64,000 nt of DNA from a virus, in the IMG/VR virus record IMGVR_UViG_3300046516_001816, positions 62,001 through 126,000 of that record, one strand, 5' to 3'. A program made the position numbers and the translations under genes. A model generated the notes under the pieces. The model had not been told where the DNA came from and made no database searches. It was given only the letters and a program-made list of their open reading frames with translations. Each line of letters opens with the position of its first letter. Within the stretch, counting starts at the first letter, position 1. Below are positions 5,808 through 62,669 of the stretch, one piece after another.

Positions 5808-6655
5808 ACGAATACGGGCAGATTATCGTGCATCAGGTCCCGCAAGCTGTGCTCGAGCATTTTCCGGAAGAACACAGAAAAGACTTTGATCTGCGACCGA
5901 TTGAAATGCTGCCTGAGACGACCGAGGAAACGTACAACGATCGTGTGTATCCGAGAGAAGCATTTCCGGTGGTGCAGGGCAATCAATGTTGGGTGGAGCG
6001 CGTGACACCGCGAGATGCCGTCACCGTGCAGCCACTGATGGATCCCGTGCCCTTGATTTTCTCAATGGGACGTAACACGGGTAAGTCGTTAACGACGGCG
6101 GATATCTTCGATAACATCGTGAGCGATGAGCGTCCCATGGATGCGTTGGAGAACTTCTTCACCGGCTTCTATAAGCGACTCAACGGTACCTTGAATGGAT
6201 ATATGGGCGAAGCCCGGCCGCGCAAGGTAAGCTTTAACTGGGAGCCGGAACTTACGATCATTGGTCGTAAGCGCTTTTGGTTGTATCCGACCTACACCTC
6301 GTTGATTGGTCCCAATGGCAAGGATATCATGCGCGTTTGCGTACCCGCTCGCCGCCGCGCCGGGTTTGCTGCGTACAAGAGCATGAAACGACAGGACCTG
6401 CAAATCCTGAAACCCCCTAAGCCACTGGATTGGTCGTTTGCGCTTTTCGAAGAAGAAGTGCGCAACTGGTACCGACCGGCTTACGGACCGGATGGTCTTA
6501 TCTTGCTGAAGCAACTTCAGCCGGGCCAGCGCGTCACGGTGACCTATTCGTTCGGTACCTTGCGCTTTGTCGATCCGTACAAGGAACGCCCGTCTGAACG
6601 CCGTGCTCGGCTCTCGAGCACGGCCGATTCAAATGGCAAACCAAGGAGGAAGTAA
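5789..6655 (+). CDS. Conserved hypothetical protein (288 aa)
   Basis: The frame opens within the end of the previous gene, after CAGGGAGAAA. The 288-residue product is soluble in appearance and has no motif that I can assign. It contains a short string SMGRNTGKS near residue 92 that resembles a P-loop but lacks the downstream Walker B context, so I do not call an ATPase. The C-terminus is basic and low in complexity. The stop TAA shares its last base with the next ATG (TAATG), suggesting coupled translation. Function unknown. Confidence 0.65.
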   Translation: MVGTPLNEYGQIIVHQVPQAVLEHFPEEHRKDFDLRPIEMLPETTEETYNDRVYPREAFPVVQGNQCWVERVTPRDAVTVQPLMDPVPLIFSMGRNTGKSLTTADIFDNIVSDERPMDALENFFTGFYKRLNGTLNGYMGEARPRKVSFNWEPELTIIGRKRFWLYPTYTSLIGPNGKDIMRVCVPARRRAGFAAYKSMKRQDLQILKPPKPLDWSFALFEEEVRNWYRPAYGPDGLILLKQLQPGQRVTVTYSFGTLRFVDPYKERPSERRARLSSTADSNGKPRRK

Positions 6656-7077
6656 TGGCAGGTGAACTGGTTCTACCGGGTCAGCTTGATTTGATTGCCA
6701 AGATTGACATCGACCGGCATCAACGTAAACACACGGGCTTGCCTGTGTCCTACGCCGCCATTCGTCGTGCCAGGGGATTGCTCGAACTCTTGCCGCAGCG
6801 CATGGCTGCCGCACGGGTCAATGAAGGACAAGACGGCTCGGTAGAATTTACATGGGAGCGTCATGATGAGGTAGTGGACGCTACCTTGCGTTTGTGCGCG
6901 CAACCTCACGGCGGTGTGAAGTACTACTACAAGGTAGGTGGTAGAAACGGCGGTGAGGCAGGGGGCTTTCTGAAACCGGATCAATGGGATACGGAAGTCA
7001 TCGGCATCGTGAGACACGTGGTCGCCGTGCTCACACCCGCGCCCGCACGCACCGGGTCAATTCCGCGATTGGAGTAG
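6655..7077 (+). CDS. Hypothetical protein (140 aa)
   Basis: ATG at 6655 overlaps the previous stop and has an excellent AAGGAGG ribosome site. The 140-residue product mixes a helical N-terminal half (residues 20-50) with a beta-rich middle (VEFTWERHDEVVDATLRLC). No known family is evident. It is the last gene of the overlapping operon, and the gap that follows holds a hairpin and the promoter of the chimallin-like gene. Confidence 0.65.
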   Translation: MAGELVLPGQLDLIAKIDIDRHQRKHTGLPVSYAAIRRARGLLELLPQRMAAARVNEGQDGSVEFTWERHDEVVDATLRLCAQPHGGVKYYYKVGGRNGGEAGGFLKPDQWDTEVIGIVRHVVAVLTPAPARTGSIPRLE

Positions 7078-7153
7078 TTCGAGTAAAAATTTACCGAGAT
7101 ACCCCTATGGTATAGTGAAGAGCACGTCTCTTCATGCCGATCCCATCTGTCTA

Positions 7154-7172
7154 GGGGTCGGAAGGAAACCCC
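7154..7172 (+). terminator. Weak hairpin in the 7078-7329 gap
   Basis: GGGGT (7154-7158) and ACCCC (7168-7172) form a short stem with no T tract. Apart from this, the promoter motif at 7246 and a possible CTATGGTATAG box near 7108, I see nothing in this 250-base gap. Confidence 0.3.
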
Positions 7173-7245
7173 GGTAATTCCCTTGGACAGTTTTGTAGTA
7201 CTCGTTTTGCCCCAAGGACGCTGCGCGATTCAAAGACGAAATAGG

Positions 7246-7255
7246 CATATATCAC
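7246..7255 (+). promoter_or_regulatory. Candidate early promoter CATATATCAC
   Basis: The 10-mer CATATATCAC occurs 75 bases before the chimallin-like gene and again, identical, at 9394-9403 before the RNAP beta' gene. Related copies precede other early-type genes. It is close to the phiKZ early core TATATTAC as I remember it. Confidence 0.5.
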
Positions 7256-7329
7256 CTATCTGACACTAATACGAGAGTGTAGTGTTCGCGCGATCATTAA
7301 CTCTGTTTAAAACTGAAGGAAACGAAATC

Positions 7330-9297
7330 ATGGGCATCAACTCCCCGGAAAACAATCAAGCACAAACGTCGATGGGTCAGGCACTCGGGCGCGCCCAGGA
7401 ACAGGCCGCCGGTTCGAATGCTGGCACGACCCAGCAACAGACGTTTAACCAGCCGCGTGGTCAAGCGGGTCAGGCTCGTCCGCGTCTGGCAGACTTCGGC
7501 CGTGTTTCGCGTGCGGCGTTCAGCCGTAACCCGCAGAGCGACGTCATCACGAAGCTCAGCAACGCGCTCACCGAAATCTACAAGAACGGCGCGCAGATCG
7601 ACAAGTCGTTCGACGTGACGCTGATCCCGATCGACTACAACAACACGCGTACGCTGGTGAAGTCGTGTATCGTCGTCGCGGTTCGCGATCTGCAAAACCC
7701 GGACAACGGCGTCGCGTACCACACGCTCGTGCTGGAAGGCTCGAGCGAGCCGATCCAGAACGACTTCCAGATGATCGGTAACACGAACATCGAAATCACG
7801 AAGGTGACGGGCGACGTGTGGACGCCGGTGTTCCAGGGCGAAGTGCAGGAATGGGTGCAACGCGCATTCCCGGGCAAGAACCTGCTGCCGGTCGACGCAG
7901 AAGTCGTGTACAGCAACTTCGACGTCGAAAACCACAACCGCGTGCATCAGCTCGCGATGAACGCACTGGCCGCTTGCGCGACCGAGCTCGACATCCGTGC
8001 GGGTGGCGTGGACATCGACCTGGGTGCAGTGGACCAGGACAACACGCTGACCGTGCAAATGTCGTTCAACAACGCGCAGACGGAAGACGTCGCAGGCATG
8101 CCGCTGCGTTCGGACATCGTGATCGACTTCCGCGCAGGCGGCCAGCCGATCCCGAATCAGCCGGGCTCCAACACCCGTGTGTCGACGCTGTCGCGCATCT
8201 CGGGCTTCATGGATCTGGTCTGGATGCCGGCGCAGCCGCAGCAGCAAGCGTTCAATCCGTGGGTCGCGCAACAGCAAGTCGCGCCGTCGCCGGACGAGTT
8301 CAAGCGCTACATCCCGCGTTTCGTGATGACCGATCTCGAATCGCAAACGCTGCTCACCACGCGTGCTGAACTCCTGGCACTCGTGACGGCGTTCACGCTG
8401 CGTGAAAACAACGCGTGGGTCGAGTCGTTCCGTCCGTCGCCGGTGCAGGTCGAAGGCGTGGACTGGAAGGACATCGGCGCCGTGGGTATCGAGGCGAACT
8501 TCGATCGCAACCCCAACGGCTTCGGCTCGCGGATCGACACGAAGAGCGACCAGTTCCAACGCGGTCAGAACTCGGCAGCCGACTACCTGATGCGTCTCGT
8601 CGCATCGGTGTTCCAGCCGAAGCTGATGCTGTCGCTCGACATCCCCGAGTGCGGTCCGCAAACGTGGTTCACGTCGGTGTTCGCCGCAGCTGGCGAAACG
8701 CAGAACGCGAACAGCGCGCATGCGACGGAGTTCATCATCAAGGAAGCGGACAAGCTCACGCATGGTCGTTTCCTGAAGCACTTCCCGGCAAACGCGCGCG
8801 TCACGGTCGATGAAAACAACCGCATCTTCAAGGGCTACTGGATCGACCGCAACGGTCACATGCGCAGCCTCGACGAGATCGATTACCTGGCCGTGCTCAA
8901 CATGGTCGGCGATCGCGATCCGGAACTGGCACGCGAATGGTCGGACAGCTTCGCGCTCACGGGCGTGCCGCTCGAGATCCGTCTGGACAAGCGCCGTAAG
9001 ATCATCAACGGCATCCTTGGCCAGAACAACGTGCACATCAAGGGCTTCGCACGCCGTGTCACCTTCGAGCCGGCATTCGTCGACGCGTTGGTCGCAGCAT
9101 GCAAGGAAGTGGGCCTCACGATGCGCACGATCGCACCGTACGCAGAGCTGAACACGTACGAGCGTGGCGTGAATCCGTACGCCGCACAAGCAGCGCTGGA
9201 CGCATCGGGCTACACGTCCGGTCTGTTCAACCGCGGCTTCGCGGGCTCCAACCAGGGCCAGTTCGGCAACCGCGCAGGCTTCTCGCGCTGGGGTTAA
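7330..9297 (+). CDS. chmA: Probable chimallin, phage nucleus shell protein
   Basis: Likely shell protein of the proteinaceous phage nucleus that encloses replicating phage DNA. ATG at 7330 follows GAAGGAAACG. The 655-residue product has a disordered Gln/Gly/Asn-rich N-terminus (about 1-55), a beta-rich domain containing DVTLIPIDYNN and GVAYHTLVLEGSSEP near residues 90-140, a larger mixed domain, and a Gly/Asn/Arg-rich tail (FNRGFAGSNQGQFGNRAGF). Ordered core with flexible ends and about 630-660 residues fits ChmA of 201phi2-1 or phiKZ gp54. It is followed by an RNAP beta' gene, as phiKZ gp54 is by gp55 (from memory). Its codon use is far more biased than its neighbours', consistent with very high expression. 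The main alternative is a capsid protein. Confidence 0.68.
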   Translation: MGINSPENNQAQTSMGQALGRAQEQAAGSNAGTTQQQTFNQPRGQAGQARPRLADFGRVSRAAFSRNPQSDVITKLSNALTEIYKNGAQIDKSFDVTLIPIDYNNTRTLVKSCIVVAVRDLQNPDNGVAYHTLVLEGSSEPIQNDFQMIGNTNIEITKVTGDVWTPVFQGEVQEWVQRAFPGKNLLPVDAEVVYSNFDVENHNRVHQLAMNALAACATELDIRAGGVDIDLGAVDQDNTLTVQMSFNNAQTEDVAGMPLRSDIVIDFRAGGQPIPNQPGSNTRVSTLSRISGFMDLVWMPAQPQQQAFNPWVAQQQVAPSPDEFKRYIPRFVMTDLESQTLLTTRAELLALVTAFTLRENNAWVESFRPSPVQVEGVDWKDIGAVGIEANFDRNPNGFGSRIDTKSDQFQRGQNSAADYLMRLVASVFQPKLMLSLDIPECGPQTWFTSVFAAAGETQNANSAHATEFIIKEADKLTHGRFLKHFPANARVTVDENNRIFKGYWIDRNGHMRSLDEIDYLAVLNMVGDRDPELAREWSDSFALTGVPLEIRLDKRRKIINGILGQNNVHIKGFARRVTFEPAFVDALVAACKEVGLTMRTIAPYAELNTYERGVNPYAAQAALDASGYTSGLFNRGFAGSNQGQFGNRAGFSRWG

Positions 9298-9512: not shown

Positions 9513-11048
9513 ATGGGCATTCACATGGAGATCATCAGCCATGATCAGATCTTCGACCAGTATCTCTCCAAAGAGCCAATCATCATCAACGATCTGTCCG
9601 ACATTTCCGAGACGGATCGGGAACGTAACGATCGCCTCATTTTCACGAAGTACGACCTGATTAACTCCGATCTGCTGTCGAACATCCCCTCGTGCGATTG
9701 CGGTAATACGATTGGCGCCGATAAACTGGGCAATGGGAAGGACATCCCGCCCGTGGAGTGTCCGGACTGTCACAAGCCGGTGAAAGAGCTGCATCAGCAA
9801 GACCTCGAGCCCCTGATCTGGTTGCGTGCGCCCATGGGCGTGAAAGCGCTGATCAACCCGATCATCTGGACCATGCTCGCGGGCAAGAACGGGTTCGAGA
9901 AATCGAACTTCGATGTGGTACGCTGGATCTGCGATACGTCGTATAAACCGCAGGCGGTCAAAGAGCCGCCCGTGGTGGACTACATTCGTAAGGCCGGGAT
10001 TCCGCGCGGCTACAACAACTTCGTCGAGAACTTCGACGAGATCATGGACTTCATGTTTAACCTGAAGTTCTACAGCAAGAAGAAGTTGGCCCCCTTGAAG
10101 CAGCTGATCAAGGAGTATCGGCATGCGGTCTTTAGCACGCATTTGCCGCTACCCAACCGCTCCTTGCTGGTGCTGGAAGAAACGAACCACGGCACCTACG
10201 TGGACCCGACTGCACCGATTGCAGTGAATGCGATTCGCATGATGGTGGGCATCGATGGGCCGCTGTCGGTCCATACGCCGCGGGTGAAGGAAAACCGCAC
10301 GATCAAGATGATCATCGAGACGGCGAACTTCTACGACGAGAACAGTCGCACCGTGCTCGCCAAGAAGGAAGGCATCTTCCGTAAGCATATCTTCGGCACC
10401 CGGTCGCACTTCAGCTTCCGCGCCGTGATTTCTTCGCTCACGGATAACCATCGCTACGACGAAATCCACATCCCGTGGGGCATCGGGGTGGCGGTGTTCG
10501 AGCTGCATTTGCAGAACATGCTCAGGCGCCGCGGCTACACTCCGTCGCAAGCCAATGCGTTCTTGGCTGAACATACGCAGAAGTACCATCCGATGTTGGA
10601 TGAGATGTTCAACCTGATCATCAGTCGTTCGCCCATTGGTGGCGGCGTGCCGTGCGTGCTGCAACGTAATCCGTCGCTCGCGCGTTCATCTGCTCAAGCC
10701 ATGTTTATCACGAAGGTGAAGACCGACGTGAACATCCCGACGATCAGTATGTCGATTTTGTCGGTGGTGGGCTTCAATGCGGACTTCGACGGCGATCAGC
10801 TGAACTGCACGTTGTCGCTCGATCACGTGACGGCCAACGATCTGTACCGCCTGGCACCCCACCAGTCGGCTTTCGATCTGAACGCCCCGCGTACCATCTC
10901 GCGCAACCTCTCGAAACCGAAGACGGCGATTGCCACCTTCTCGAACTGGCTGCACTGGGACCAACCTGAGACGCCGGACCCGGCGATCCTGCAACGGATG
11001 AATATGATTCCGGAGTGTGATCCGTACGTGGCCCCGACGATTCATTAA
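9513..11048 (+). CDS. RNA polymerase beta' subunit, N-terminal part (non-virion RNAP, phiKZ gp55-like by position)
   Basis: Carries the metal-binding loop of a multisubunit RNA polymerase. The signature NADFDGD is present at about residues 422-428, with all three catalytic aspartates. The N-terminal zinc region appears as CDCGN near residue 58 and CPDCH near residue 80. The protein has 511 residues, about half of the N-terminal part of bacterial beta', as expected for the split subunits of phiKZ-like phages. The start at 9513 has GGAAAGGAG. Its place after the chimallin-like gene and its early-type promoter point to the non-virion RNAP, which transcribes genes within the phage nucleus. The assignment as beta' is firm; which of the two phage polymerases it belongs to is inference. 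Confidence 0.87.
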   Translation: MGIHMEIISHDQIFDQYLSKEPIIINDLSDISETDRERNDRLIFTKYDLINSDLLSNIPSCDCGNTIGADKLGNGKDIPPVECPDCHKPVKELHQQDLEPLIWLRAPMGVKALINPIIWTMLAGKNGFEKSNFDVVRWICDTSYKPQAVKEPPVVDYIRKAGIPRGYNNFVENFDEIMDFMFNLKFYSKKKLAPLKQLIKEYRHAVFSTHLPLPNRSLLVLEETNHGTYVDPTAPIAVNAIRMMVGIDGPLSVHTPRVKENRTIKMIIETANFYDENSRTVLAKKEGIFRKHIFGTRSHFSFRAVISSLTDNHRYDEIHIPWGIGVAVFELHLQNMLRRRGYTPSQANAFLAEHTQKYHPMLDEMFNLIISRSPIGGGVPCVLQRNPSLARSSAQAMFITKVKTDVNIPTISMSILSVVGFNADFDGDQLNCTLSLDHVTANDLYRLAPHQSAFDLNAPRTISRNLSKPKTAIATFSNWLHWDQPETPDPAILQRMNMIPECDPYVAPTIH

Positions 11049-11072
11049 CGAAGAACAACCAAGGAAATCATC

Positions 11073-11318
11073 ATGGCAGGTGAATATGGTTATGGGCGTG
11101 AGCTCAATGTCGACCACATGACGTTCCCGTCGTCGACCGAAGATGGACCTTTCATCCCTCCGAGTGCGCAACTCAGCTTCAAGCGTTACACGCCGGAAGC
11201 CGTGGAGTTCGGCGCGCGCGACATGCCGCTCAATCTGTACGGCGACAAGGATGACTACAAGCCGTTCGATCCGACGGGTCCTTCCCGTGATGATATCCTC
11301 GACGCATTGAAGAGGTAA
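11073..11318 (+). CDS. 81-residue paralogue of a segment of RNAP beta
   Basis: A complete small gene with its own ribosome site (CCAAGGAAATC). Nearly the whole product aligns by eye with the middle of the RNAP beta C-terminal subunit at 22105-24366: YGRELN with YGRECN, STEDG with TSEDG, FKRY with FKKY, VEFG with VEFG, and PLNLYGD with PLNTYGD, with one short gap. In bacterial beta this segment begins the domain with the Glu-Asp pair near the active site, and ED is kept here. The full-length subunit also has this segment, so this is a duplicated fragment. It may be a remnant, an assembly factor or a decoy. It sits directly after the beta' gene. Confidence 0.75.
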   Translation: MAGEYGYGRELNVDHMTFPSSTEDGPFIPPSAQLSFKRYTPEAVEFGARDMPLNLYGDKDDYKPFDPTGPSRDDILDALKR

Positions 11319-11321
11319 GTC

Positions 11322-11939
11322 ATGGTCATGATTGTCCAAGGCGACACCAATGTGTTCAATGCACTTGTGTATGGAGCGGAGCGTCATCCGAATACCATGC
11401 AGTATTTGCAGAACCAGGCGTCGCAGTTCTCGGGGGCGCTCACCGAGTTCGGGCAAACGTTCATGCAAGGCGCGCAGCAGCTTTACGAGACCTTTAACAG
11501 TTCGGAAGCCATGCGGGCCGCGCGAGCGGCAGTTCGGAAGTTCGATGCAATCTTCTTACCTGATCGCATCCAGATGTTGGAGACGATTGGGAACTTGCAG
11601 CATGCGCCGTTAACCATGCAGCGATACATCATGGCGGAGCCCACCGTACGTCGGTATTTCTTGACGCAGCGCGTGGACGGTTACTCAGATACGTATCAGA
11701 ACGTCTGGGGCAATGACTGGAAAGTCGATCACTACGATTGGCGCCAGATTCATAACGGCGTGATGGAAGAGACGGAAGAAGGCCATGTGATGCATCACTG
11801 GCTGGACGATGTCTTGGAAGGGGATCGGCCGCTGCACTTTGGCGAGAAGGTGGACGCCATTCACAGTGGCGAGTCGGCGGCAGCCTACATCGAACTCGGA
11901 CGGGAAGACCCGACCGATAAGCGTAACAATAAGCTGTAA
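11322..11939 (+). CDS. Hypothetical protein (205 aa)
   Basis: Two starts are possible, ATG at 11322 and ATG at 11328, following GAGGTAAGTC. The product is largely helical, with an N-terminal half rich in Ala, Gln and Phe (TMQYLQNQASQFSGALTEFG) and a C-terminal half rich in His, Asp and Glu (HVMHHWLDDVLEGD). It lies four bases after the beta fragment and is the last gene before a terminator, so it belongs to the same transcript as the RNAP gene. No family recognised. Confidence 0.6.
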   Translation: MVMIVQGDTNVFNALVYGAERHPNTMQYLQNQASQFSGALTEFGQTFMQGAQQLYETFNSSEAMRAARAAVRKFDAIFLPDRIQMLETIGNLQHAPLTMQRYIMAEPTVRRYFLTQRVDGYSDTYQNVWGNDWKVDHYDWRQIHNGVMEETEEGHVMHHWLDDVLEGDRPLHFGEKVDAIHSGESAAAYIELGREDPTDKRNNKL

Positions 11940-15836: not shown

Positions 15837-16643
15837 ATGAGCGATTTTCAACGTGCTCCGCGCAAAAAGAATGCACTGGACAACCGTAAGCTGCATCTGT
15901 CGGCGCCGTGCCCCACGGCCAAAGGCAAGTGGTCCAGCTTCCAAGTGAACGTGTTCACCGCGGAAAAGACCGGCGAACCGAACCCGCGTATCACGGTGTA
16001 CACGCGTGACCCGGAAGATCAGGGCGAGTCGAAGAACTACGGCAAGATCCAGGCCAACCTCGACCCGGTCGTGTTCATGGCGCTGATGGTCAAGCTGCGC
16101 TGGATCATCGAAGGGCGTCCGGGCACGGAAGCCGAGCCGATCAAGGCTGACGGCGAAGACAAGGTGAAGATGGAGAACAAGAACTTCATCTTCCCGGGTG
16201 GCCGCAAGTCGGAAGAACCGGTCGTCGTGTCGGAAATTCACCTCGGCAAGGACGCTGACGGCGTGATCTGGATCTCGGTCACGGCCAAGGATCGTCCGCG
16301 CATCAAGTTCACGTTCGGCCCGAACCAGTTCCACAACCTGTTCCACAAGACGGGTGAACAGTTCAGCAAGGGCGAAGCGTCGCAACTGTGGGCACTCGGC
16401 TGGTGTCGTCTGATGGAAGAGATGATTCCGGAGTTCCTGATCAGCGACTACGTGGACATCCCCTACGATCCGAACGCAGCCAAGGGCGGCGGTGGCGGTG
16501 GCTTCAATCGCGGCGGTGGTGGCGGTGGCGGTTACAACCGCGGTGGCGGCGGTGGTGGCGGCGGCGGTGATCGTCCGTACAACAAGGGCAACATGTCGGG
16601 CACGAACGACACGGCCACGAGTGACGACGACATCCCCTGGTAA
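15837..16643 (+). CDS. SSB-like, Gly-rich single-stranded nucleic-acid-binding protein; ChmC candidate by position
   Basis: The 268-residue product has a beta-rich domain over residues 1-200, a long Gly/Arg/Asn tail of repeated FNRGG-type units (about 216-248) and the acidic tip TSDDDIPW. That tip is almost the DDDIPF end of bacterial SSB, which recruits replication proteins. Both features support single-stranded nucleic-acid binding. Position gives another reading: in phiPA3 the protein directly upstream of the fifth non-virion RNAP subunit is, as I recall, ChmC (gp61), an RNA-binding protein of the phage nucleus. Here the next gene is the gp68-like subunit. Codon use is strongly biased, implying abundance. 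ATG at 15837 follows TTAAGGAAAAACC. Confidence 0.6.
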   Translation: MSDFQRAPRKKNALDNRKLHLSAPCPTAKGKWSSFQVNVFTAEKTGEPNPRITVYTRDPEDQGESKNYGKIQANLDPVVFMALMVKLRWIIEGRPGTEAEPIKADGEDKVKMENKNFIFPGGRKSEEPVVVSEIHLGKDADGVIWISVTAKDRPRIKFTFGPNQFHNLFHKTGEQFSKGEASQLWALGWCRLMEEMIPEFLISDYVDIPYDPNAAKGGGGGGFNRGGGGGGGYNRGGGGGGGGGDRPYNKGNMSGTNDTATSDDDIPW

Positions 16644-22104: not shown

Positions 22105-24366
22105 ATGCTTGAGACCCATTCGACACCCATCGCCCAAGCTGTACGGCGACGCGGTGTCCTTCGTGATGAACCCAATGAGCTTTCCCCCGAGCTCTTGAAC
22201 GTGTGCGGGATGAATCCCCTCGACCAGCACAACTCCTCGTCTCGAAAGCAGATGTTCGCCTCGCACTTGGGACAGTGCCTGGTGATCAACGGCGCCACCG
22301 AGAAGCGCTTGCAATCGGGCACCGAGCGTGAGTTCGGTAAGTATACGTTTTCGACGAAGATTCCCGTGGGCTGCAAAGTCATCAAGGTGATCAATCGTTA
22401 TCGGGAAACCTGGGGCCAGGATTCGGTCCTGAAAGACAAGAACGACAATCCCGAGACGGTCATCATTTACGAAGACGTGCAGACCAAAGAAGTCGGCTCC
22501 GTGTCGGTGAAACAGTACACGTCGAACCACTCGTATTTCGGCTTCAAGAACAAGATCAACCCGGTGGTCAACCGCGTGCACCAGGACGACCATTTGCCGG
22601 CGGGTACGATCCTCACCAATTCGCCGTCGGTGACGATGACTGAAGGCGAGAGCCCGATCATCAAGTCGTACAACTATGGGCGCGAATGCAATATCGCGTA
22701 CATGAGCCATCCGGCGACGTCTGAAGATGGGATTTTGATTAGCCAGAAGGTGCTGCGCGAGTTCGGGTTCAAGAAGTACGAAACGCGCGTGGTGGAGTTC
22801 GGCAACAAGAGCTTTCCGCTGAACACCTACGGCGACGAGAATGTCTTTAAGGCGTTCCCGGATATTGGCGAGCCGATCCGGCCCGATGGCTTATTGATGG
22901 CGTTTCGTCCGTACGAGAAAACCGATCAGAGCTACGATCGTGAACTGGCCTTGGTCGAGCAATCGATCTATGACCTGATGGAGATCGATCATGTCTTCGA
23001 CAAACTGGTGTATGCAGACGGCCCCGGTGGGCGTGTCGTGGACATCCGTGTGCATCATGACACGAAGGCCACGAATTCGCCGACACCGATCGGCATGGAC
23101 ACGCAAGCCATGCGTTACGATGCTGCGCGTCGCATCTTCTATCAAGACATCGTCGCGGAATGGCGTCGTCTTGAACGAGATCGCCGTGAATCGCTGCGTA
23201 TCACGCCGGAATTCCATCGCCTGGTGGTCGAAGCGTTGGCAGTGGTGCACGAAACGCAAGAGCGCGTGTTCAAGCTTTACCGCAAGGCGCCGCTTGACGA
23301 TTGGCGCATTGAGTTTGTGATCGAGTACGATGTCATTCCGACGATCGGCTTTAAGCTGACCGATAGCGCCGGTGGTAAGGGCGTCATCTGTCATGTGGTG
23401 CCGGACGACTGGATGCCGACGGACGCCGATGGGAATCGTGCGGACATCGTGATGGATCCGAACTCCACGGTTTCCCGGATGAATCTGTCCCGGAAATACG
23501 AGCAGTATATCAACGCGCACAGTCGTGACGTGACCAAACAGATTCGTAGCTGGTTTGGCATCGAAGCGAAAGATCGGGAAATCATCCACAAGGTGCAGAC
23601 GATCGAGCGTCAGAACAAGCCGCTGTTTGATCAGGCTTGGAAGTATCTGATGCGCTACTACGAGATCACCACGCCGATCATGCAGTCGTGGTTTGAAGCG
23701 GGCGGCTATATGAAGACCGCGGCCGAGCATCTGGCCGAGATCATCAAAAACGGGATCAGCCTGTGGAAGCCGACGAACTGTCCGCGCGAGAGCTCGGACA
23801 TCGTGCGCATGCTCGAAGCGGAGTATCCGTCGACCTATGGACCGGTCACCTACGTGGGCAATTCGGGCCGCCGAGTCACGACCAAGGTGAAGGTGCGCAT
23901 TGGCAGCGTGTATATCATCCTGTTGGAGAAGACCGCAGACGATTGGTCCGCGGTGTCCTCCGGTCGCACGCAGCATTACGGCGTGTTGGCGCAAGTGGGC
24001 AACCAGGACAAGTATACGCAGCCGTATCGCAGCCAGCCGATTCGTGCCTTTGGTGAAGCTGAAATCCGGATTGCGGCGTCCTACGCCGGCCAGCGGGTCA
24101 CCGCGGAAATCATGGACCGTAACAACAATCCCGAGACGCACAAGGCGATTGTCGAAGCGATTCTGGATGCGGAGGAACCGAGCAATATCTACAACGCCGT
24201 GGACCGTGCGAAGATCCCGTACGGCGGCTCGAGACCGCTGCAACTCGTTAAGCACATCCTGGCGTGTTACGGCGTGCGGTTTGTGTATACCCCGTACAAC
24301 GCACCGAAGGTCGATTATCGGACCTTGCCGCAGCAGACGGGTCATGCGTCGTTGACCGCGCACTAA
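22105..24366 (+). CDS. RNA polymerase beta subunit, C-terminal part (non-virion RNAP, phiKZ gp71-73-like)
   Basis: Bears the C-terminal half of RNAP beta, 753 residues. Visible landmarks are YGRECNIAYMSHPATSEDG (about residues 191-209), the start of the beta active-site domain with its Glu-Asp pair, and GFKLTDSAGGKGVI followed by DDWMP, DADGNRADIVMDP and SRMNLSRKYEQ near residues 414-470. These match the bacterial sequence around the two active-site lysines and the DENG/DIVLNP/SRMN region. A large segment after residue 500 has no bacterial counterpart that I recognise. ATG at 22105 follows CCAAGGAAACATCATC. The order beta C-part, beta' C-part, helicase is that of phiKZ gp71-73, gp74, gp75 (from memory). 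Confidence 0.85.
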   Translation: MLETHSTPIAQAVRRRGVLRDEPNELSPELLNVCGMNPLDQHNSSSRKQMFASHLGQCLVINGATEKRLQSGTEREFGKYTFSTKIPVGCKVIKVINRYRETWGQDSVLKDKNDNPETVIIYEDVQTKEVGSVSVKQYTSNHSYFGFKNKINPVVNRVHQDDHLPAGTILTNSPSVTMTEGESPIIKSYNYGRECNIAYMSHPATSEDGILISQKVLREFGFKKYETRVVEFGNKSFPLNTYGDENVFKAFPDIGEPIRPDGLLMAFRPYEKTDQSYDRELALVEQSIYDLMEIDHVFDKLVYADGPGGRVVDIRVHHDTKATNSPTPIGMDTQAMRYDAARRIFYQDIVAEWRRLERDRRESLRITPEFHRLVVEALAVVHETQERVFKLYRKAPLDDWRIEFVIEYDVIPTIGFKLTDSAGGKGVICHVVPDDWMPTDADGNRADIVMDPNSTVSRMNLSRKYEQYINAHSRDVTKQIRSWFGIEAKDREIIHKVQTIERQNKPLFDQAWKYLMRYYEITTPIMQSWFEAGGYMKTAAEHLAEIIKNGISLWKPTNCPRESSDIVRMLEAEYPSTYGPVTYVGNSGRRVTTKVKVRIGSVYIILLEKTADDWSAVSSGRTQHYGVLAQVGNQDKYTQPYRSQPIRAFGEAEIRIAASYAGQRVTAEIMDRNNNPETHKAIVEAILDAEEPSNIYNAVDRAKIPYGGSRPLQLVKHILACYGVRFVYTPYNAPKVDYRTLPQQTGHASLTAH

Positions 24367-24417: not shown

Positions 24418-26433
24418 ATGATGAAACGATTCTCTGCGAGAACACTGATCGGGATGAGCACCGAGCAGTTGTGGGAAAGTCTCTGGGGCGATTTCATCGT
24501 CGTCTTTGATGACGGTGAGCTCGTCACCAATCACCGAGAAACGATTTACTCGAGCTACGTCTGGGACTTGCTGCGTGAGTTCCCGGCCACGCCCGTACTG
24601 ATGCGTCATCACGTCAGAACGGTGCTCGGTGATAAGCTGCTGGGCTCCAACACCCACCTGGACCTGCTCGGCAACGTGGTGTGGGATGTGGCCGATGCGT
24701 ACGAAAATGATCAGGTGGTCACACAAGACCGCTTGATGAAACGTACGTATGAGATCGTGAACCATATGTACAACGAGCTCACGTATCGCCTCGAAGAATA
24801 TGTGGTGTCGCTTGACATCACCGACTTCGTCGATATGCTGGACCATCCGGGCCTGATCGCGGCCAAGCAACCGCTCTACGACGTCCCCCTGGAAAAGGTG
24901 ACGGACAAGATGATCGGCGAGTGCTACGCGAAGATGGGCGAAGTGATCAAGGCGGACCCCTCGCTGATGGGTAACCCTTTGGCGCGTGCGGCGCGTGCCG
25001 GGACGGTGAAGTTCGATCAGCTGCTGCAATGCGTGGGACCGCGTGGTAAGGTGACCGACATCGACTCGACCCAGTTCGATCAAGTCATCCTGCGCAGCTT
25101 TACCGAAGGCTATCGCAACTTCCGCGATTCGTTGATTGAGTCGCGTTCGGCGGCGAAATCGCTGATCTTCTCGAAGACGCCGCTGCAACAGGCTGAGTAT
25201 TTCTCCCGACGTCTGCAACTGATGTCGATGAATATCCAGCACTTGCATCGCGGCGACTGCGGCACGACGAAGTTCATCGAATGGCCGGTGCGCAAGAAGG
25301 ACCTGAAGCGCCTCGCGGGCAAGTACTATCTGGACGACACGCGCAATCAGCTGCGCGCGATCACGGGGAAGGAAGACCACCTCGTGGGCAAGCGCGTGAA
25401 GTTGCGCTCGGTGATGGGTTGCGCACACCCGGATCCGGTGGGCGTGTGTTCGACGTGTTTCGGCGCACTGGCAAAATCGGTGCCGGACTACACGAATATC
25501 GGCCACATGTGCTGCATGTTGCTCACGGAAAAATCCTCGCAGTCGGTGCTCTCGGTCAAGCACTTGGATAGTTCCGCGACGATCGAGGCGATTGTCCTGG
25601 GTCAGGATGACAAGCTCTTCCTGAAGGTGGGGGTGGATGATAACTCTTATCTGATGGCCGACCAGCTCCGCGGAGTCAAGGTCAAACTTGTCATTGCGGC
25701 TGAATCGATTCCGAACATCAACGACGTCAATGAAGTCGACGACGTGGATAATCTGACGATCAGTCGCTTCTCCGAAATCCAGACGATCGGCATTATCGTC
25801 GAGCAGCAATCGGGCGAGAGAAAAGTTATTGAAGGGCGAGATGTTTTGACAGAAGTTGGTGGTCGGTTGGCCTCACTTACGCATGAGATGTTGCATCATA
25901 TTCGTAAGAACAGCTTCGACCTGAACGCGGAAAACAACTACGTGATTGACATGACGGGTTGGGATTGGAGCAAACCAATCCTCGCGTTGCCGCTTCGCCA
26001 TTTCAATATGTCGGATCACTCCCGTGACATCGCCCGCATGCTCGAATCGTCGGTGCGCATGATGCAGGAACGGGACAAGAAGTTGCGTCCCAACGATGCA
26101 CTCATCCAGTTGTATGAGTTGGTCAACAGCAAGCTCGACGTCAACCTGACGGTGCTCGACGTGGTGTTGTACGAAGCCATGATCGTGTCGGCCGAACACG
26201 GCGACTACAGTTTGCCCAAACCATGGACGGCGGAAGGCTTTGGGGTGATGTCGATGTCGATGTTGCATCGCTCGCTCTCAGCGGCCATGGCGTTCGAGGA
26301 CCATCGGGACACGATTGTGAACCCGGTCAGCTACACGTCCAAGAATCGCCTGGACCATCCGTTCGATGTGTGCATCTGTCCGCAAGAAGTCTTGACAAGC
26401 CAAAACCAACAATACGCGGCCGTCGCTGCGTAA
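24418..26433 (+). CDS. RNA polymerase beta' subunit, C-terminal part (non-virion RNAP, phiKZ gp74-like)
   Basis: 671 residues; ATG at 24418 (or 24421) follows CAAGGAAAC. The trigger-loop region is recognisable in FTEGYRNFRDSLIESRSAAK and the following helix near residues 225-260. The second zinc site of beta' is seen as GDCGT near residue 280 and CAHPDPVGVCSTC near residues 336-348, which matches bacterial CDTDFGVCAHC in spacing. The bridge-helix/trigger-loop module and four zinc ligands place it as the C-terminal partner of the NADFDGD-bearing gene at 9513. Gene order supports the non-virion enzyme. A different beta' C-terminal subunit at 38014 belongs to the second polymerase. Confidence 0.85.
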   Translation: MMKRFSARTLIGMSTEQLWESLWGDFIVVFDDGELVTNHRETIYSSYVWDLLREFPATPVLMRHHVRTVLGDKLLGSNTHLDLLGNVVWDVADAYENDQVVTQDRLMKRTYEIVNHMYNELTYRLEEYVVSLDITDFVDMLDHPGLIAAKQPLYDVPLEKVTDKMIGECYAKMGEVIKADPSLMGNPLARAARAGTVKFDQLLQCVGPRGKVTDIDSTQFDQVILRSFTEGYRNFRDSLIESRSAAKSLIFSKTPLQQAEYFSRRLQLMSMNIQHLHRGDCGTTKFIEWPVRKKDLKRLAGKYYLDDTRNQLRAITGKEDHLVGKRVKLRSVMGCAHPDPVGVCSTCFGALAKSVPDYTNIGHMCCMLLTEKSSQSVLSVKHLDSSATIEAIVLGQDDKLFLKVGVDDNSYLMADQLRGVKVKLVIAAESIPNINDVNEVDDVDNLTISRFSEIQTIGIIVEQQSGERKVIEGRDVLTEVGGRLASLTHEMLHHIRKNSFDLNAENNYVIDMTGWDWSKPILALPLRHFNMSDHSRDIARMLESSVRMMQERDKKLRPNDALIQLYELVNSKLDVNLTVLDVVLYEAMIVSAEHGDYSLPKPWTAEGFGVMSMSMLHRSLSAAMAFEDHRDTIVNPVSYTSKNRLDHPFDVCICPQEVLTSQNQQYAAVAA

Positions 26434-61289: not shown

Positions 61290-62669
61290 GTGGAATTTGA
61301 ACAATCGGCCTTGATGTTTGAAGTGAACCAGATTCTGAATGGTGGCGCCAAGCCCGTGCAGTATAACTTGAGCGCCGAGATTCTGGTGAATACCACGGGG
61401 AGCGTGACGAGTCCGCTGAAGATTTTGAGCGTGGACTTAAAGCGCAATTACCTCGATGAGTATTCGGATGTCTTGATTGTGGAGATGGCCATTCCTGCGG
61501 GTCAGTATGCTTCGCTGATCTACCCGTATAAAAACAATCTGGACATTTCGCTGACCTACACGCCACTGAATGAAACCGGCGACGCCACCAACACGGCTTT
61601 AGCGCCGAAGTCGGAAACGTTTACGGCTACGCTCGTGGATACGGGGTCGCCGATCATGGAACAAAACGGCTTTAATACCCCGACCGCATACAACCTGGAC
61701 TTGGCGAACATCGTGAACGTCAAGTTCCAGTTGGTCAATAAAGCGCTCGAGCAGATGCGCATGATTGAAGTCGGGCAGATCTTTCGGGGCGCCACCGTCG
61801 ATGACGTGATCAAGACGGTGCTCACGAATGCATCGCAAGCCACCAGTGTCGATGGGCAGCGTACCGTCCAGGGCGTCACGATGCACAAGTCGTCCAACCA
61901 GACGCCGCGTGAGCACATTGTGATTCCCCACGGCGTGAAGCTCGTGGACGTGCCGCAGTATATCCAGAAGTATTGTGGAGGAGTCTACAATGCAGGCATG
62001 GGCTACTATTTGCAAGGCAATCAGTGGCATGTCTATCCGGCGTTGGACACCACGCGCTTTAACCAAAGCGAGACCACCCTTACGCTCATTAATCTCCCGC
62101 AGAACAAGTTCTCAAATGTTGAGAGGACTTATCGCGTCTCAGGTGGAAACCTGGTGGTGATGGCGACTGGTAATGTGAAGTTCCGCGACCCGAGCAATCA
62201 GCATCAGCTGAACGCCGGTAACGGGATTCGCTTTTCCGATGCCAGTAAGTTCATGGGCGGGTTTGTCGATGTGCTGAAAAATAAAGCACTCGCCTCACGG
62301 GGTGGCAATAACAATGAGTTCGTGGGCTTTCAGCGACCCAATGGCAATAACAATGTGTCGCGCTCCACGAACCCTATTACGTCCAATTCCCTGGAAGAGT
62401 ATTCCAAGGTTGCGCGGGCGATGGGCTCGGTGATTCAATTGGAGTGGCAGCATTCCAATCCCGATCTGATTACGCCCGGCTTGCCGACCGAGATTCTGTA
62501 TATGGATCACGACACGATTCAGCAGCTCTCGGGTGTCGTGGTGGGCGTCCATCATTACACACATCTCATGGGGCAGGGCTTCTCGGCCATGCGGTATGGC
62601 ACCGTCAGTACCATCGCTGTGTTTATCCAGCCTGCCGATCAATCCGGTTCTACCAATAGCACACCTTAA
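61290..62669 (+). CDS. Probable baseplate hub or tail protein (459 aa), GTG start
   Basis: GTG at 61290 has an excellent AAGGAGG ribosome site and is the best start. The 459-residue product is beta-rich (LIVEMAIPAGQYASLIYP, DISLTYTPL) with a segment HGVKLVDVPQYIQKYCGGVYNAGMGYYLQ near residue 210 and QWHVYPALDT after it. This style, a beta-rich protein with a small helical insertion that precedes QxxxxPxL, is typical of myophage hub proteins (gp27/gpD-like). The assignment is by general resemblance only. Confidence 0.5.
   Translation: MEFEQSALMFEVNQILNGGAKPVQYNLSAEILVNTTGSVTSPLKILSVDLKRNYLDEYSDVLIVEMAIPAGQYASLIYPYKNNLDISLTYTPLNETGDATNTALAPKSETFTATLVDTGSPIMEQNGFNTPTAYNLDLANIVNVKFQLVNKALEQMRMIEVGQIFRGATVDDVIKTVLTNASQATSVDGQRTVQGVTMHKSSNQTPREHIVIPHGVKLVDVPQYIQKYCGGVYNAGMGYYLQGNQWHVYPALDTTRFNQSETTLTLINLPQNKFSNVERTYRVSGGNLVVMATGNVKFRDPSNQHQLNAGNGIRFSDASKFMGGFVDVLKNKALASRGGNNNEFVGFQRPNGNNNVSRSTNPITSNSLEEYSKVARAMGSVIQLEWQHSNPDLITPGLPTEILYMDHDTIQQLSGVVVGVHHYTHLMGQGFSAMRYGTVSTIAVFIQPADQSGSTNSTP

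Follow-up and report, generated by a model that had tools for sequence, protein, structure and literature searches.

Why does a phage that encodes an intact beta C-terminal subunit of its non-virion RNA polymerase (nvRNAP) carry a second, free-standing copy of one short piece of it? The question is raised by an 81-residue gene, here called mini-beta, in the window, a stretch of 64,000 nucleotides (positions 62,001 to 126,000) of the virus record IMGVR_UViG_3300046516_001816. The record is that of a 285-kb (284,983 bp) chimallin-encoding jumbo phage. Because it encodes chimallin, the phage nucleus shell protein (7282–9297, plus strand; PF25677, E 3e-43; phrog_4795), the phage is of the nucleus-forming Chimalliviridae kind (PMC10299810). 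On the same strand, chimallin is followed by the nvRNAP beta' N-terminal subunit (beta'-N; 9513–11048), a PhiKZ gp55 homologue that contains NADFDGDQ (phrog_2987, E 5e-147; PF00623), by mini-beta (11073–11318), and by a PhiKZ gp59-like phrog_3254 gene (11322–11939), which forms the right flank of the slot occupied by mini-beta. The order of chimallin, beta'-N and phrog_3254 is the same as in PhiPA3 and FLC9. Farther along the plus strand are the genes of the intact nvRNAP beta C-terminal subunit (22105–24366), a homologue of PhiKZ gp71-73 (phrog_3295, E 7e-221; PDB 7ogp_C, E 2e-133), and of the nvRNAP beta' C-terminal subunit (24418–26433), a homologue of PhiKZ gp74 (phrog_3015, E 4e-191). Positions 15837–16643 of the window encode a 268-aa protein with a glycine-rich tail that ends in TSDDDIPW and resembles the acidic tip of single-stranded DNA-binding protein. 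A link between the Avs5 trigger JADA and the mini-beta locus was examined and rejected, as JADA is the PhiKZ gp124 orthologue, has more than 700 residues, and is not the adjoining gene (PMC12931631).

The preliminary description had placed an open reading frame of 81 residues at 11073–11318, directly behind the beta'-N gene and with its own ribosome site, and it is found there. The frame runs from an ATG at 11073 to a TAA at 11316–11318, begins 24 nt after the stop of beta'-N, ends 3 nt before the phrog_3254 gene, and is the same frame as that of beta'-N. A ribosome-binding site, AAGGA (11061–11065, plus strand), is located 7 nt before the ATG. The codon usage is genome-like in its own frame only, with an index of 0.62 versus 0.33 and 0.26 in the other frames; windows of the adjoining genes have indices of 0.48–0.89.

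Mini-beta is homologous to its own phage's beta C-terminal subunit. Its residues 5–80 (nt 11085–11312) match beta residues 189–268, which are encoded at 22669–22908 on the plus strand. BLASTP against the product of 22105–24366 gives 33 identities over 80 positions (41%), 62.4 bits, and an E value of 2e-17. A profile built from beta only scores mini-beta at 65.0 bits, and none of the 1,000 shuffled control proteins exceeds 3.9 bits. The PHROGs match is phrog_3295, RNA polymerase beta (E 4e-10), so that the profile check proposed in the preliminary description yields a significant match. The alignment including mini-beta matches the PDB profiles 7ogp_C and 7s00_C. A Pfam search gave no match for mini-beta, and none was found in plasmids. 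The strings YGRE, EDG, VEFG and PLN-x-YGD, which had been pointed out by eye, are collinear with those of beta in the BLASTP alignment. The alignment does cover most of the length of mini-beta, but where one short gap had been described there are three, one of two residues after the EDG motif and two of one residue each near the C-terminus. The Glu-Asp pair is retained, as E23-D24-G25 in the window mini-beta and within SEDG in the version of a sister phage described below. We take the EDG motif to be the counterpart of E. coli beta E813-D814, beside the beta' catalytic aspartates. A search of the whole 284,983-bp record with full-length beta hits the intact beta gene, mini-beta, and nothing else, and no such second place was found in the 74 public phage records matched by query P0001 at E ≤ 1.

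The small gene is neither a full-length subunit nor one part of a split one. It spans beta residues 189–268 only; the GGKG region (beta residues 423–426) is absent, and so are the catalytic lysines (K386/K394 of gp71-73). PhiKZ gp71-73 (PDB 7OGP, phrog_3295) is homologous over gp71 residues 165–241, including the EDG motif and LN-x-YGD, but has about 700–750 aa, whereas mini-beta lacks the catalytic lysines, the flap, and all else, and is encoded beside an intact copy. Split RNAP genes of jumbo phages (PhiKZ gp71/gp73, intron-interrupted; relatives G003, G005, and G007) likewise have beta pieces as separate ORFs. In contrast to mini-beta, those pieces jointly replace one subunit and break at residue 423–425. 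Mini-beta is a diverged duplicate of residues 189–268, and the intact gene at 22105–24366 retains the segment and has a full-length phrog_3295 match. Hence, mini-beta is a paralogue rather than a missing piece, as had been proposed. In G003, G005, and G007 (L020, L021, L023–L026), the beta split at 423–425 lies just before the catalytic GKG motif.

About 55 related phage records came from scans that used beta'-N, the phrog_3254 protein, and beta as queries, and the whole-record search with the segment profile covered 58 records; an additional clade-specific scan of IMG/VR found no further close relatives. The nearest relatives form one clade, which includes contigs (L075 and L076, 286 and 284 kb) within two Paraburkholderia isolate assemblies. 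These assemblies suggest the host group, and perhaps reflect a carrier state. The window phage (G000) and G001 (IMGVR_UViG_3300043754_000129) are sisters with a support of 100/100 both in a tree of beta'-N, beta, chimallin, and the phrog_3254 protein and in a larger tree of beta'-N plus beta. G001 has a 50-aa ORF, METIPMENPQVSEDGLLLDPKVLEKFNFKKYNPHAIEFGTTQFPLNVYGG, in the same slot and on the same strand (L003:6546-6698). It is preceded by CCAAGGA, the context in which the AAGGA of the window gene also stands, and like mini-beta it represents the beta segment, has the same frame relative to beta'-N, and retains EDG, EFG, and PLN-x-YG. The core common to the two minis comprises EDG, FK-Y, EFG, and PLN-Y-G. 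Unlike the window mini-beta, the G001 version has neither the YGRE part nor the tail after YG, lacking the first ~15 and the last ~24 residues, which counts against the explanation favoured below.

The other eight members of the clade (G041–G048), searched as whole contigs, have full beta only and no mini. In their slot, G041 and G045 have an unrelated 213-aa gene, G042 has a 10-codon ORF, and G043, G044, and G046 have no gene; the slot of FLC9 is a 14-nt spacer. The 213-aa gene (L075:6545-7186) has no database relatives and a similar ribosome-site context. More distant relatives have many unrelated ORFs at this place, for example a GIY-YIG-like endonuclease ORF in G002 (L004 7929-8636), and the slot is therefore a hotspot for accessory genes. 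The beta'-N gene of G002 is itself interrupted, exactly at NADFDGD, by an intron-like insert (L004:6261-7590) that carries an HNH-like ORF (6571-7566). Conservation of the small gene next to beta', which the preliminary description had proposed to test, holds in the sister phage but in neither the eight other clade members nor FLC9. The presence of the mini in only two of ten clade members counts against the favoured explanation. An erratic presence with frame breaks had been named as a possible refutation; the presence is indeed patchy, but no frame break occurs in either copy.

Because the mini is shared by two sister phages in one slot and absent from the eight other clade members, the simplest history, and a very probable one, is a single insertion in the common ancestor of G000 and G001. 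The dS between the two phages is 1.1–1.4 for all genes compared, which is near saturation. The mini core has a dN/dS of about 0.46, compared with 0.11 for the corresponding part of beta and 0.21 for beta'-N. That part of beta is thus under a constraint about four times as strong as the mini, which again counts against the favoured explanation. About 20 of the 45 residues of the mini core are identical. In neutral simulations assuming a single duplication, the mean is 5.3–7.9 identical residues of 45, both frames stay open in 11–20%, and at least 20 identical residues are reached in 0 of 120,000. With a single origin, neutral drift therefore cannot explain the shared protein core, and the mini has been kept under moderate purifying selection. 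If there was one insertion, these simulations accordingly speak against the suggestion that the gene is a remnant, taken to mean a neutral fossil. Near-neutral decay would account for the data if each mini had arisen separately and recently from the beta of its own phage. In a tree of the short segment, AU tests reject neither the grouping of mini with mini nor that of mini with its own beta. Prolines at beta columns 214 and 227 are present in the two minis but in no other row of the count, and so have the look of shared derived states. Altogether three residues (Pro, Pro, Ala) are common to the minis but not to their betas. As about 17 columns changed in both copies, these may be shared by chance, and we do not use them as proof.

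The same beta segment, free or attached, recurs in two phages that are distant relatives. In G037, a 54-aa ORF (L069:5676-5840) that directly follows the phrog_3254 gene scores 28–30 bits with the beta-only profile; in it PDG replaces EDG, and the similarity continues upstream of the ATG. G020 has a 310-aa protein beside PhuZ (L137:1757-2689, minus strand), which contains the segment at residues 207–280 (G020:C1:116352-116567; 52.5 bits with the same profile). Unlike in mini-beta, the segment is here the C-terminal part of an unrelated protein, and G019, a close relative of G020, has a 171-aa version of this PhuZ neighbour without the segment. G050 is perhaps a third such relative; its 438-aa protein (L199:715-2031) has no PHROG match and matches the segment partially (EYKYGVELNMNMSAMPQVQEDEIFINQ) at 15.7 bits. 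A beta'-like HFSFR motif in the 438-aa protein was dismissed, its 3.3 bits being at chance level (shuffles up to 5.4). All copies in G037, G020, and G050 are additional to an intact beta. A portable module is a conceivable but quite unlikely reading, in which chimalliviruses would reuse the segment, on its own or joined to other proteins like the PhuZ neighbour, for docking to the polymerase or holding an assembly intermediate. If so, a part of the polymerase would have been turned into a trans-acting regulator.

Given its retention in the same spot of a related virus, mini-beta probably does something, and we conjecture that its most likely action is to touch the polymerase during assembly. 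Our leading account, which we put somewhat short of an even chance, is that a retained partial duplication binds beta'-N as a placeholder or competitor. It draws on the homology, the genome-like codon usage, the gene's own ribosome site, the tight operon, the same slot in G001, the neutrality rejected under a single duplication, and the recurrence elsewhere. The beta segment around EDG, copied as a free-standing gene, would have been inserted once into the accessory slot between the beta'-N and phrog_3254 genes. Mini-beta would share an operon with beta'-N and be produced 11 kb upstream of beta. It may then bind beta'-N on the surface close to the NADFDGD catalytic loop, which the beta segment would cover once the enzyme is complete; by holding that place for a time or competing for it, mini-beta might tune the assembly or activity of nvRNAP. 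Both AlphaFold models, made along the lines of the check proposed in the preliminary description, are of low confidence. Mini-beta alone (20 rows) has a pLDDT of 59 and a pTM of 0.20. In an in-frame fusion of beta'-N and mini, the mini part has a pLDDT below 50 and no confident placement. As part of a larger domain, mini-beta may require its partner in order to fold, and the models therefore speak neither for nor against docking. A Foldseek search of the PDB with the mini-beta model returned nothing at E ≤ 0.001. A MAFFT alignment was dropped, as it misaligned the free beta segments onto beta'-N.

The main rival to a bound placeholder or competitor is a relic, a beta fragment that illegitimate recombination brought into an insertion hotspot, where it is slowly decaying, functionless or trivially functional, for instance in keeping translation coupled to the next gene. 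This we consider only a little less likely than the leading account. It accords with a slot that in relatives holds unrelated genes or the GIY-YIG-like endonuclease ORF, with the patchy presence among relatives, and with the different lengths of the G000 and G001 copies. The dN/dS of about 0.5–0.7 between each mini and its own beta would also fit near-neutral decay, provided that the origins were separate and recent. It agrees less well with the occurrence of the gene in the same slot of two sister phages only, with frames that are intact despite near-saturated synonymous divergence, and with the maintained codon usage and ribosome site; under a single origin the neutral model is rejected. Mini-beta might instead be a docking or decoy piece for another partner, such as a sigma-like subunit (gp68 homologue), a host factor, or a polymerase-recognising defence protein. 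The attachment of the segment to an unrelated protein in G020 suggests a portable binding piece, but no partner is known, and we regard this reading as unlikely.

The remaining two alternatives concern how the gene is read or how it came into the record. Read-through of the stop codon would add mini-beta as a tail to the C-terminus of a minor part of the beta'-N molecules. In both phages (window 9513-11315; L003:5001-6695) the mini is in the beta'-N frame, and the 24- and 18-nt spacers contain no further stop; yet a shared frame in both would arise by chance alone in one case of nine, each copy starts with an ATG behind a good ribosome site, and the stop is TAA in both. TAA is usually the tightest stop, and read-through appears highly improbable. 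As the record is a metagenome-derived contig, an error of assembly or contamination could have made an extra copy, but this origin is refuted: the copy is just 41% identical to beta, and a second phage, whose contig was assembled independently, has it at the same place. The probability left to such an artefact is negligible.

The observation of a second, partial beta is confirmed, an unusual feature for a phage enzyme whose kind has been well studied. The evidence from sequence favours retention of mini-beta, and the roles set out above are conjectures. Kept in two phages, directly behind beta'-N, is a separate copy of the beta surface that is expected to face the beta' catalytic loop, and mini-beta is a simple inhibitor or chaperone candidate for the reconstituted PhiKZ enzyme. 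Even as a relic, it would show that polymerase fragments can be captured by an accessory slot within the conserved chimallin/RNAP block. How phage nvRNAP subunits assemble and stay together without alpha has been stated as an open question (PMC7598289). For these four- or five-piece enzymes, mini-beta, if functional, would be a direct handle on alpha-less assembly.
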